Assembly (NCBI GenBank): GCA_905181855.1
Contig: CAJIZE010000005.1
Location: 1 to 64,000, forward strand
DNA length: 64,000 nt
Source of the DNA: an uncultured Flavobacteriales bacterium
GTDB lineage: Bacteria; Bacteroidota; Bacteroidia; Flavobacteriales_G; Salibacteraceae
Direction: 5' to 3'
Positions 45,045 through 49,670 of this stretch are shown here, one piece after another (the first letter of the stretch is position 1; each line of letters opens with the position of its first letter). The position numbers were made by a program, and so were the translations under genes. The notes beneath the pieces are model-generated. The model searched no databases and had not been told where the DNA came from. It saw nothing but the letters and a program-made list of their open reading frames with translations.

Positions 45045-46748
45045 ATGGAGTTATTAGATTGGTTTGTGATGTTAAGCACCCTTTTTGGGATAGTGATTTA
45101 CGGGGTTGTGAAAACACGTAAAAACGAAAACATACATTCCTACTTTCTAGGTGGCAAATCTATGGGATGGGCAGCCATAGGATTATCGGTAATGGCAACT
45201 CAGGCAAGTGCTATAACGTTTATTTCTACGCCTGGGCAGGCTTATGAAAGTGGGATGGGGTTTGTCCAAAATTATTTTGGTCTTCCGCTAGCACTGATCA
45301 TTGTAGCAGCGGTTTTTATTCCGATATATTACAAGCTAAAAGTATATACCGCATATCAGTACCTAGAGCAAAGGTTTGATTTAAGAACAAGGCTTTTGGC
45401 TGCGTTTTTATTTTTAATTCAAAGGGGGTTAGCAGCGGGAATTACCATTTATGCTCCCGCAATAATATTATCAGCAGCATTGGGTTGGGATTTAACTTAT
45501 ACTATATTATTTGTAGGGATTCTAGTGATAATCTATACTGTTTCAGGAGGCACAAAAGCGGTCAGCTTAACACAGAAATGGCAAATGATGATAATTATGA
45601 TGGGAATGTTCATTGCATTTTTTGTGATACTGAATAAAATCCCTGATGATATCTCGTTTATTGATAGCTTGTCTATAGCAGGTAGCATGGGTAAACTGGA
45701 AATTGTTAATTTTTCATTCGACCCAAGTGTGAGGTATACCTTTTGGACAGGCATTACCGGGGGGCTTTTCTTGGCTCTTTCCTATTTTGGTACGGATCAA
45801 TCTCAAGTTCAAAGATACCTTGGAGGGAAATCAGTAAAGGAAAGTCGATTGGGTTTGATGTTTAATGCCCTTTTAAAGGTGCCTATGCAATTTTTTATAT
45901 TGTTATGTGGTCTTATGGTATTTGTTTTTTTTCAGTTCCAAGAACATCCGGTTCTTTTTGATCAAGCATCAGTAGACAGTGTAAATAAAACGGAATATGC
46001 GGATGAATTTAATGCATTAAACAATCAACATTTAACCCAATTTAAAAAGAAACGACTCGCTATTCAGCAGTTTAACAAAGCAACTGAAGGGTCAGAAAAA
46101 GCTCAACTTAAAGAGGAATTATTAAGGCTTGAAGGTGAATCAAAAGTAATTAGGAATAAAGCCAAAGATGTGGTTAAAACAGCCTTGCCTGGTAACAATG
46201 CTAAGGACTCTGATTATGTATTCCTTTCGTTTATATTAAATTACCTTCCTACAGGTTTGGTTGGTTTGCTATTGGCAGTCATAATATCGGCTGCTATGTC
46301 CTCAACCGCCGGAGAATTGAATGCGTTAGGGTCAACAACATTGATAGATTTTTATCAAAGACTTTATAAAAAAAAGGGATCTGATAAGCATTACGTAATT
46401 GCATCTAAAGCTATTACTGCGTTGTGGGGAGTTATCGCTATAATATTTGCATTATTTGCCAACATGGTTGAAAACCTAATTGAAGCCGTAAATATTTTAG
46501 GGTCACTTTTTTACGGAACAATTTTAGGGATTTTTATGGTAGCATTCTTCTTGAAAAGAGTAGGAGCTAAATCAATTTTTATTTCAGCTATAATCTCCGA
46601 AATAATCGTAATAAGTATTTACGTTTTCTTTGGCGACATCATTGCCTATTTATGGCTTAATATAATAGGCTGCTTATTGGTAATGGCTTTAGCTAGTTCT
46701 CTGGCATTATTTGGTAATAAACCTCTAGTTAGCCCAAAGGTTCATTAA
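45045..46748 (+). CDS. Sodium:solute symporter (SSS family)
   Basis: A 567-residue inner-membrane transporter with about 13-14 helices. Family blocks: YFLGGKSMGWAAIGLSVMATQASAITFISTPGQAYESG, YTVSGGTKAVSLTQKWQ and SYFGTDQSQVQRYLGGKSVKESR, each visible in the N-terminal half. A soluble charged helical insert of roughly 90 residues (about 318-400) separates the helices, as in several Bacteroidota members. Substrate (sugar, sialic acid or other) cannot be told. Its 3' end overlaps the convergent DUF2911 gene by 24 bp. Confidence 0.92.
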   Translation: MELLDWFVMLSTLFGIVIYGVVKTRKNENIHSYFLGGKSMGWAAIGLSVMATQASAITFISTPGQAYESGMGFVQNYFGLPLALIIVAAVFIPIYYKLKVYTAYQYLEQRFDLRTRLLAAFLFLIQRGLAAGITIYAPAIILSAALGWDLTYTILFVGILVIIYTVSGGTKAVSLTQKWQMMIIMMGMFIAFFVILNKIPDDISFIDSLSIAGSMGKLEIVNFSFDPSVRYTFWTGITGGLFLALSYFGTDQSQVQRYLGGKSVKESRLGLMFNALLKVPMQFFILLCGLMVFVFFQFQEHPVLFDQASVDSVNKTEYADEFNALNNQHLTQFKKKRLAIQQFNKATEGSEKAQLKEELLRLEGESKVIRNKAKDVVKTALPGNNAKDSDYVFLSFILNYLPTGLVGLLLAVIISAAMSSTAGELNALGSTTLIDFYQRLYKKKGSDKHYVIASKAITALWGVIAIIFALFANMVENLIEAVNILGSLFYGTILGIFMVAFFLKRVGAKSIFISAIISEIIVISIYVFFGDIIAYLWLNIIGCLLVMALASSLALFGNKPLVSPKVH

Positions 46749-47585
46749 ATCATCTATTTCATTTTCAATCTTATCTGATTCAACTTTTGACAATGATTCA
46801 TCATTTTGTAAAAGACTAAGGCTCTCCTTAGCGATGTTTAATGCTCCTGGTAGGTCACCAATCTTCTGCATTATTTTAGCAAGAAGAATTGCGTTTACAT
46901 GATTTATATCTCCTTCATATGCAACAATTGCCCATTCAACTGCTTCTTTCAAGTTTTGATTTGAATCGAAACAATATTGTGCAGCAAATTTAAATTTTTC
47001 AGTCTCATTTTTATCTGCCTTCTCAATGTCTACTCTAATTTTATTAATTAATTCAGAATCATCAACAGAAAACGACAATTGAAAAGCCTGGTTACCAATC
47101 ACGATAATAACACTACTGAAATTGATTCCACCTTGATAGGGCATAATAGCAAAATCCTGTCCTTGGATTGAACATTCGAAAGATGGTAATTTTTCCAATT
47201 GAAAGATGTTAATCGGTATTTTTGAATCTTTTTCTGAATCTGCTTTTAAACTATAATATTCAGTTTGAAGAGTCAAACTATAGGTGCCATCTTCACCAAC
47301 TTTAATTCCTCCAACATAGTTTCCTTTTACTAAAGTTTTTTCTTCATTAAATAATAAATCTTTATTGGTTCTTACAATAAAATTGGTTTTTCCTCCAGGG
47401 TAAAATATTCCTCTATCGTCAGCTAAGTTTTCGATTAAATCTTCAATAATAGATGCTTTGTATGTAAATGAGATTTCAGCAGAACCAACTTGTTGAGTGA
47501 CAGTAAAAGAAGGGCTATTTCCTGGTAACTGAGCAAAAAGTACTGAACTGGACAATAAAAGAAAAAAAGTTATAGTTGATTTCAT
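46725..47585 (-). CDS. Exported DUF2911-family protein
   Basis: 286 residues with a signal peptide (MKSTITFFLLLSSSVLFAQ). SPSFTVTQQVGSAEISFTY and KVGEDGTYSLTLQTEYYSL match the beta domain of DUF2911 proteins, and the C-terminal third is helical and TPR-like (FKFAAQYCFDSNQNLKEAV, NAILLAKIMQKIGDLPGAL). Function of the family is unknown. It lies 48 bp downstream of the RiPP partner gene on the same strand, so it may be transcribed with that cluster; this is inference. Confidence 0.75.
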   Translation of the reverse strand: MKSTITFFLLLSSSVLFAQLPGNSPSFTVTQQVGSAEISFTYKASIIEDLIENLADDRGIFYPGGKTNFIVRTNKDLLFNEEKTLVKGNYVGGIKVGEDGTYSLTLQTEYYSLKADSEKDSKIPINIFQLEKLPSFECSIQGQDFAIMPYQGGINFSSVIIVIGNQAFQLSFSVDDSELINKIRVDIEKADKNETEKFKFAAQYCFDSNQNLKEAVEWAIVAYEGDINHVNAILLAKIMQKIGDLPGALNIAKESLSLLQNDESLSKVESDKIENEIDDLMNLWAN

Positions 47586-47633: not shown

Positions 47634-48377
47634 CTAAACACTAAAAACGATGCCTTTTTTATTCAATTCTTTTAACCAAGCTAAACTCGAAAGTATCTGC
47701 GCATCGGTGATTGCAACATTTTGTGCGCTTAAAGTATTTACTAATGTCGACTCAAATAATCTTGTTGAATTACTCTGTAATTCGCTTAAAAACAAGTATC
47801 CAAATATTGATAATTCTTCAAAGTGCACCTTATGCGTCCTTAAATTTCGATATATCAAAATAGGATATTGGCCTAGGTTGGTATTCCATTGTTTAAATGG
47901 CTTATTATGAAGAGGATGCTGTAAAACAATTAATTTGTGGTAAGGATTCACAAAATACGGTTGTGCAATAGAGTCTATTTTATACAACTTTGGCAGCTCA
48001 ATATTGGTCATGGTATGAATTTCAATTTCGAGCCATTCAAAAAGAAGTAATTCAGGTAAAAAAGTATGAGCTAATTTGTATGCAGAATTTTCATCGTTTA
48101 CATAATCAATTAGCTCTTTTGGCATTTTCCATACCTGAGTGTTTTTACAGTTATGCTCCTTAAAAAAATCATTACATAAATTAAAAAAATCTTCATTTCC
48201 AAGAATCTTTTTAGTAATAGGAAAAGCCTGACCTAATATGTCCTTAATGACATTGTATACCAATCTTCTGTACTGCGGAATTCTTTCAAGTCGCGCCTCA
48301 GTTAAACCAGTTGAGTCGCCTGTTCTGGTATAATTAGCAAGTTTTTGCTGTGCAAGAGAAGTTGTTTCTTTAAGCAT
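47634..48377 (-). CDS. hvfC: DUF2063 partner protein of the MNIO RiPP enzyme (HvfC/BufC-like)
   Basis: 247 residues. The N-terminal DUF2063 domain shows LTEARLERIPQYRRLVYNVIKDILGQAFPITKKILG and FFNLCNDFFKEH, the pattern of the putative DNA-binding DUF2063/HvfC family. A C-terminal winged-helix-like region follows. In characterised RiPP clusters this protein binds the leader or precursor peptide and assists the DUF692 enzyme. Its start overlaps the end of the enzyme gene by 8 bp, so the two are made together. No metal-binding motif of its own is evident. Confidence 0.88.
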   Translation of the reverse strand: MLKETTSLAQQKLANYTRTGDSTGLTEARLERIPQYRRLVYNVIKDILGQAFPITKKILGNEDFFNLCNDFFKEHNCKNTQVWKMPKELIDYVNDENSAYKLAHTFLPELLLFEWLEIEIHTMTNIELPKLYKIDSIAQPYFVNPYHKLIVLQHPLHNKPFKQWNTNLGQYPILIYRNLRTHKVHFEELSIFGYLFLSELQSNSTRLFESTLVNTLSAQNVAITDAQILSSLAWLKELNKKGIVFSV

Positions 48378-49224
48378 TAACTTTTATTTTATTCCAATGT
48401 TTAGAAGTGATTTCTTTAATCTGCTGTATCTCTTTTTGTAATGATTCCATGTTAGGGATATTGAAATCGCGCTCTAATAAAATTGGAACTTCAGGTAACT
48501 TAGGTAATGACCAATTCAACAGGTCGTAAACAGGTTCAATAATGGGTTGTCCATGGGTATCAATAATTAAATCATCACTGATTTTATCATGACCTGCAAT
48601 ATGCATGTATGCCACTTCATTAAGAGGTAAATTATCAATAAAATTATGTTCATTGTAATTATGATTGAATGCATTTACGTAAACATTATTAATGTCCAAA
48701 AGCATTTTACAGCCTGATCTAGTCACTATTTCTTTTATAAATTCTGATTCAGAAATTTTAGGAGCGAGCGGTGTGTAATACGATACATTTTCAATAACCA
48801 AATGCATTTCTAAAATGTCTTGTACTTGCTTGATTCTTTCTATAACATGATTCACTGCATCTTCAGTAAAAGGGATAGGAAGTAAGTCATACAAATGAGC
48901 ATTATCGCACTTAGAATATGATAAATGCTCAGAATAAATTTGAATGTTGAATTCGTTAAGGAATGATTTTATTTTTTTAAGAAACGGTATGTCCAATTCG
49001 TCCGGCGAACCAATACTTAATGATAGTCCATGAGCGGATATAGGAAAATTGGCAGCTATTTGTTCAAGTTTATCACGCCAATAGCCACCCATGTCAATCC
49101 AGTTTTCGGGAGCAAGCTCCACAAAATCAGGTTTTAAAATAGGGTTTGATTCTTTTGATAAAGCAATTGTTTCATCTGCAATATCTCTTCTGAATCCTAA
49201 TCCAACTCCTCTAATTTTATTCAT
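48370..49224 (-). CDS. hvfB: MNIO (DUF692) iron-dependent RiPP-modifying enzyme (HvfB/BufB-like)
   Basis: 284 residues from the ATG at 49224; a TTG at 49230 is in frame but lies in the U-tract of the upstream hairpin. The DUF692 TIM barrel begins with GVGLGFRRDIA. Probable iron ligands are seen in ISAHGLSLS, YSEHLSYS, VIENVSYY, LLDINNVYVNAFNH, YMHIAGH, IDTHGQP and LLERDF, the same order of His/Glu/Asp as in MbnB and HvfB. These enzymes use a multinuclear iron centre and O2 to oxidise cysteines of a precursor into heterocyclic, copper-binding groups. Here the substrate is the adjacent KCGEGKCG precursor. Confidence 0.93.
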   Translation of the reverse strand: MNKIRGVGLGFRRDIADETIALSKESNPILKPDFVELAPENWIDMGGYWRDKLEQIAANFPISAHGLSLSIGSPDELDIPFLKKIKSFLNEFNIQIYSEHLSYSKCDNAHLYDLLPIPFTEDAVNHVIERIKQVQDILEMHLVIENVSYYTPLAPKISESEFIKEIVTRSGCKMLLDINNVYVNAFNHNYNEHNFIDNLPLNEVAYMHIAGHDKISDDLIIDTHGQPIIEPVYDLLNWSLPKLPEVPILLERDFNIPNMESLQKEIQQIKEITSKHWNKIKVNA

Positions 49225-49228
49225 AGGC

Positions 49229-49255
49229 AAAAAAAAGATGGGACAAGCCCATCTT
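49229..49255 (-). terminator. Hairpin with U-tract between RiPP precursor and enzyme genes
   Basis: In minus-strand RNA, AAGAUGGG (49255-49248) pairs perfectly over 8 bp with CCCAUCUU (49242-49235) around loop CUUGU, followed by six more U (49234-49229). It lies 26 bp after the precursor stop and ends 4 bases before the enzyme ATG at 49224. It should act as a partial terminator or mRNA stabiliser that lowers enzyme expression relative to precursor. Confidence 0.82.
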
Positions 49256-49280
49256 CATTTTATCGTTATAGTTAAGTGAA

Positions 49281-49670
49281 TTACATTCCACATTTACCTT
49301 CACCACACTTATGTTCTCCTGATTTGCTTTCGCCTTCAGTTTTTTCTGCTTTTTTCTCAGCTTTCTTTTCTTCGCCACATTTTCCTTCGCCACATTTGCT
49401 TTCGCCTGTTTTAGATTCTTCAGCTTGTTCTCCTTCAGCTTTTTTCTCTTCACCACATTTACCTTCACCACATTTTAATTCAATATCGGTGTTGTTGAAA
49501 ATACTTGGTGCGGCATCATTAAGACCTAAAACATCTGAACGCAATTCAGCTCCTGTGCCTAAATCAGTTGAAGTAAATAAATTTTCTGCACTTGCAGGAT
49601 TAGCGATTAATCCTAATGCGCCTAACGCTAGTGCACTAGCCGCAAGGCTTTTTAAATTTTTGTTTTCCAT
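49281..49670 (-). CDS. hvfA: RiPP precursor with signal peptide and three KCGEGKCG repeats (HvfA/BufA-like)
   Basis: 129 residues. A signal peptide (LAASALALGALGLIANPASA, cleavage near A28) is followed by a linker and a Lys/Glu-rich tail with three KCGEGKCG units at 66-73, 92-99 and 121-128, giving six cysteines, each unit with the EGKCG core. Spacers are charged (EEKKAEGEQAEESKTGES; EEKKAEKKAEKTEGESKSGE). No other cysteine occurs. EGKCG motifs define HvfA-type precursors that a DUF692 enzyme modifies, and the enzyme gene follows directly. The signal peptide stays as leader and directs export to the periplasm. Likely role: binding or buffering copper. The neighbouring genes make the call firm. 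Confidence 0.9.
   Translation of the reverse strand: MENKNLKSLAASALALGALGLIANPASAENLFTSTDLGTGAELRSDVLGLNDAAPSIFNNTDIELKCGEGKCGEEKKAEGEQAEESKTGESKCGEGKCGEEKKAEKKAEKTEGESKSGEHKCGEGKCGM

Follow-up and report, generated by a model that had tools for sequence, protein, structure and literature searches.

Judged from its sequence, a trio of genes in the 64-kb window (the whole stretch of DNA analysed, 64,000 nucleotides) is an intact, conserved and minimal oxazolin/captophorin cluster, a member of that group from Bacteroidota. Our best explanation of the whole, which we hold with high confidence, is that a minimal Bacteroidota hvfABC cluster would make a copper peptide by the 5-thiooxazole route, with attenuation between the precursor gene hvfA and the enzyme gene hvfB. 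The family membership itself is ordinary and makes the locus a good example of an already known system, here with Bacteroidota as the host phylum; the conserved hairpin between hvfA and hvfB (the A–B hairpin) is its least expected detail.

The hvfABC trio and its place among known systems

All three genes lie on the minus strand. The HvfA-type precursor of 129 aa is encoded by hvfA (49281-49670), the MNIO (DUF692) maturase by hvfB (48370-49224, 284 aa from an ATG start, or 48370-49230 and 286 aa from an alternative TTG start six bases upstream), and a DUF2063/PME-type 1 partner protein of 247 aa by hvfC (47634-48377), with 8 bp (48370-48377) common to hvfB and hvfC. Read by eye, the N-terminus of HvfA (MENKNLK, a hydrophobic stretch, then ANPASA with predicted cleavage before EN) is a Sec-type signal peptide spanning residues 1-28 (49587..49670, minus strand). 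KCGEGKCG units follow on the same strand at residues 66-73 (49452..49475), 92-99 (49374..49397) and 121-128 (49287..49310), their starts spaced by 26 and 29 residues; they contain all six cysteines of the protein, and the repeat region looks disordered. HvfA matches the NCBIfam model NF050137 (KCGExKCG_twice) with 32.1 bits (E 6.5e-8) over a cut-off of 19.5, so the repeat is not a chance occurrence. The score with NF050188, the equivalog model for full-length HvfA, stayed below the cut-off (24 versus 95 bits), and no match of the precursor to DUF2282 was found.

The assignment of HvfB is supported by NF003818 (377 bits, cut-off 360), Pfam PF05114 (E 1e-97) and 3BWW, a crystal structure of the HvfB-type MNIO from Histophilus somni (E 7e-70). 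The homologues were collected by a scan of genome contigs and by searches of 60 relatives for precursors and MNIOs, and HvfB is 40-66% identical to all of them but one. H65, H100, E145, D177, N179, N180, H208, D222, H224 and E251 show essentially no variation across 101 homologues, and H212 is kept in 98% of them. D222 and H224 lie in a DTH motif and by that motif correspond to D242 and H244 of the H. influenzae enzyme, whose N175 has its counterpart in either N179 or N180; D242, H244 and N175 are all essential there (PMC13419390). In the tree the Bacteroidota HvfBs form a single group (support 97/97), in which the window protein is placed with four same-family genomes.

HvfC matched PF09836 (58 versus 27 bits, E 1e-15) and scored 106.6 bits with NF050145, below the cut-off of 142. 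A sequence search of the PDB gave no convincing match for HvfC (3DEE at E 0.26), and the AlphaFold2 model (pLDDT 91) retrieved 3DEE first (E 1e-7), followed by the partner protein TglI (E 2e-5) and, weakly, MbnC. As 3DEE is an MNIO partner protein (PMC12668002), the fold match together with the conserved metal site of HvfB indicates that HvfB and HvfC are a normal MNIO–PME1 pair. Gene content, family membership, active-site residues and the HvfC fold are direct observations on the window, as is the conservation of the hairpin and of the precursor block described below. The trio with its 8-bp overlap, the 129-residue precursor with signal peptide, three units and six cysteines, and the expected His/Glu/Asp ligands of the DUF692 protein had all been reported by the initial annotation, and each was recovered here at the same positions. 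Its proposal that the genes form an MNIO RiPP cluster whose peptide is exported and probably binds copper is well supported by family models, gene order and ligands, taken by analogy with characterised systems.

Homologous loci in Bacteroidota have the order A–B–C in all cases where the sequence ahead of hvfB gave a readable precursor; in Brumimicrobium the precursor lies downstream of hvfC. A sample of 296 genomes of the class contained an MNIO in 30 (~10%), most of them HvfB-like by score, and the KCGExKCG model in 18. Among neighbour proteins of relatives, which were scanned as likely candidates and so give no census, 11 of 18 upstream were sigma-70 genes and 14 of 20 downstream were DoxX, one of which was checked and matched the HvfX model (119 bits). 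Unlike many of these relatives, the trio has no sigma-factor gene beside it. No DoxX (HvfX) gene adjoins it, and the genome's sole match falls within a 431-aa frame of a different contig; DoxX is frequent rather than universal in oxazolin clusters, and is thus not strictly defining. No copper gene was identified among the immediate neighbours in this genome, which is only 55% complete, and a sigma-70 promoter scan gave matches no more numerous than in shuffles.

A 286-aa exported protein without a family match is encoded 48 bp downstream of hvfC (46725-47585, minus strand). On its other side the trio is flanked by an ABC-F gene. In a 97% complete genome of the same genus, which gave no MNIO or precursor matches, the homologue of the 286-aa gene directly follows the counterpart of this ABC-F gene, with about 60 bp between them and no hvfABC, so that the three-gene unit is cleanly present in one genome and absent from the other. 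Other neighbours were seen in relatives. In one set of same-family genomes a MATE-type transporter, not DoxX, follows hvfC (L103:2567-3973 and, by alignment, L116:6295-7707 and L117:6380-7792). In a further set of relatives (L102:5749-6501, L104:5739-6488 and L109:6515-7288), a CarboxypepD_reg-like protein (weak match) and a larger exported protein of ~700 aa lie upstream of hvfA, and in L102 and L109 hvfC is followed by a 255-aa protein that resembles an outer-membrane beta-barrel.

Among known systems, the closest comparison is the H. influenzae hvfABC(X) oxazolin, which shares the Sec signal, three KCGEGKCG units with six cysteines, the MNIO HvfB and a DUF2063-type HvfC (PMC13419390). The window differs from it in having no adjoining hvfX, in its LGTGAELR block, in the A–B terminator hairpin and in longer linkers (units 26 and 29 residues apart). 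The captophorins fontiphorin and gonophorin likewise have a Lys-Cys repeat precursor and an MNIO–PME1 pair, with 5-thiooxazoles expected; the study describing them mapped Pseudomonadota, whereas the window host belongs to Bacteroidota (PMC12668002/PMC13097082). Antoine et al. (2025) gathered about 2,000 EGKCG precursors with the core A–B–C–DoxX; this Buf_EGKCG/oxazolin family shares the signal peptide, EGKCG motifs and core A–B–C with the window, whose units in contrast are not 17-residue tandem repeats and whose trio adjoins no DoxX or sigma-factor gene (PMC12452194). By analogy, bufferins (BufABC, DUF2282, 6–12 Cys) would share the MNIO with its DUF2063 partner, the Sec signal peptide and the 5-thiooxazole; this assignment was rejected, as the precursor has no DUF2282 match and HvfB falls under the BufB cut-off (266 versus 310 bits). 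Methanobactin and chryseobasin were rejected as well, the MbnB and ChrH models giving ~53 bits each against cut-offs of 325 and 600.

The initial annotation had further taken the doubled KCGEGKCG to differ from known precursors. We rejected a novel repeat pattern, as the NCBIfam model is named for this doubling and three AEGKCGEGKCG motifs and six modified cysteines occur in the HvfA of H. influenzae (PMC13419390), while truncated FonA is modified by FonBC only with two repeats (PMC12668002). The literature on HvfA, FonA and EGKCG precursors thus shows the doubled unit to be the norm for the family rather than a variant. The biology first proposed is probably right, but the feature claimed as new is a known family signature.

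A terminator-like hairpin between hvfA and hvfB

A terminator-like hairpin with a U tract, a probable attenuator, is located at 49229..49256 on the minus strand (GAAGATGGGCTTGTCCCATCTTTTTTTT, z -3.2), a few bases ahead of the hvfB start. Terminator-like sites were present in 32 of the 42 A–B gaps of Bacteroidota, which include one pair of loci from the same genome and a few close relatives, compared to 0.17 expected in all from shuffles of the same gaps. The stems are mostly unrelated in sequence. In other phyla only 2 of 33 gaps, scored at the same threshold without shuffles, had such a site, and the gap is usually <40 bp.

An imperfect terminator placed after the precursor gene is a strategy already described for RiPPs (PMC7113386). 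As hvfB comes directly after the hairpin, the latter is most simply read as a leaky terminator, which probably sets the ratio of precursor to enzyme and keeps the enzyme low: most transcripts would end after hvfA, leaving substrate in excess of enzyme. The strong hairpin and U tract would also suit a full terminator with hvfBC transcribed from its own promoter, which could lie within hvfA; we consider this unlikely, since hvfB starts a few bases past the U tract and the gaps of relatives are mostly 49-93 bp, so that little room is left for a promoter after the hairpin. The role of the leaky terminator, like that of the precursor block, is one that we infer.

Precursor recognition and the expected chemistry

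Residues 37-44 of HvfA form an LGTGAELR block (49539..49562, minus strand), a candidate recognition element of the LGxxxE[LIV]R type seen in MNIO-linked Bacteroidota precursors. The form LG(S/T/N)(G/A)xE(L/I/V)R lies between signal peptide and repeats in 41 of 42 such precursors, compared to none of 33 from other phyla and none of eight orphans (KCGEGKCG proteins of MNIO-less genomes); the pattern was written after viewing the sequences, so these counts are descriptive and not a test, with the orphan contrast the more independent. The one exception, L025, is an ORF in the wrong frame, and another frame of that locus has LGNGAELR. The block is absent from L133, an MNIO-linked Bacteroidota precursor outside the 42, and is therefore very common rather than universal. 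NPFxxxxLxxGY is common in the precursors of other phyla. An F-x4-L-x2-G element common to both groups was considered and not pressed, being found in only 21 of 42 Bacteroidota and 22 of 33 other-phyla precursors. From these sequences it is plausible that the LGxGxELR block binds HvfBC.

The H. influenzae HvfBC enzyme has a mixed-valent diiron cofactor, prefers the full-length precursor including the Sec signal, and makes what are now assigned as 5-thiooxazoles, originally reported as oxazolone/thioamide (PMC13419390). 5-Thiooxazole formation has been characterised for HvfBC, FonBC and NgoBC alike, and the resulting peptides in general bind Cu (PMC12668002, PMC13419390). It is from such characterised homologues that we infer the chemistry, export and copper role of HvfA. 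HvfC would engage the precursor at its N-terminal part (the signal peptide, perhaps together with LGTGAELR) and offer its C-terminal cysteines to HvfB. With O2 and a mixed-valent diiron site, HvfB would oxidise each cysteine by four electrons to a 5-thiooxazole, a predicted mass change of -4 Da per cysteine and of up to -24 Da if all six are modified. Sec would then export the modified HvfA, with cleavage near residue 28, and in the periplasm it would serve as a copper buffer or sequestering peptide.

Several chemistries are found among MNIOs, and HvfA itself was initially assigned oxazolone/thioamide groups, so HvfB might make another cysteine modification (e.g. the methanobactin oxazolone/thioamide), or the peptide might bind another metal. 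We judge this very unlikely, as HvfB scores 377 bits to the HvfB family versus 53 to MbnB, and all characterised MNIO–PME1 pairs give 5-thiooxazole (PMC12668002).

KCGEGKCG proteins without an MNIO and the wider family

The initial annotation had named precursor homologues without DUF692 neighbours as a finding that would count against its reading. Such proteins do occur: six Bacteroidota genomes in which a genome-wide PF05114 search found no MNIO together encode eight KCGEGKCG proteins, three of them in G002 (one contig, 97% complete) and one each in G015, G020, G057, G194 and G257 (L122:4768-5256, L123:4845-5210, L124:4623-4985, L125:3763-4095, L126:3336-3653, L127:3683-4066, L128:3720-4019 and L129:3759-4058). 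Read by eye, seven of the eight have a lipoprotein-type signal. NedA is a lipoprotein-type EGKCG precursor that is modified by an MNIO pair (PMC12636315). Of the 17 other genomes in the class sample that match the KCGExKCG model, 5 have no MNIO, a share above the 67 of 2583 finished genomes with a precursor and no MNIO (Antoine et al., PMC12452194), and one that draft genomes and short matches may inflate. The orphans do not overturn the reading of the window, since the repeat is all that they have in common with its precursor: the LGxGxELR block is absent from them, and most have a lipoprotein signal.

A Gluconate_2-dh3/GMC oxidoreductase pair lies beside the orphan gene in three of the MNIO-less genomes, which represent two families (L124:5095-7388, L128:4078-6292 and L129:1503-3706, the last judged by sequence resemblance to L128). 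The genes are co-directional in one genome and convergent in two; a fixed association was therefore not upheld, and the pairing is a lead.

That HvfA acts, at least partly, unmodified, as a Cys-rich thiolate metal sponge like these eight proteins, appears most improbable, given that hvfB and hvfC are intact in the window with conserved catalytic residues, and that the orphans differ in block and signal. A broader view, tentative and somewhat less probable than its opposite, is that the oxazolins of Bacteroidota form a branch apart, with a built-in attenuator and a recognition block of their own at the site often taken by NPFxxxxLxxGY in proteobacterial precursors, and that MNIO-less KCGEGKCG proteins use the repeat otherwise, e.g. 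as unmodified metal-binding lipoproteins.

For annotation, the orphans mean that the KCGEGKCG repeat alone is no proof of modification. NCBIfam names the tested orphans as HvfA-family modified metallophores, and for MNIO-less proteins the database name 'oxazolone/thioamide-modified metallophore' cannot rest on the repeat alone. In summary, the window adds uncultured Bacteroidota to the range of a copper-related RiPP class that was characterised in Pseudomonadota. The A–B hairpin offers a testable handle on the balance of precursor and enzyme, and the LGxGxELR block one on how an exported precursor may be recognised before Sec; attenuator hairpin and recognition-like block are worthwhile small additions to a known family.
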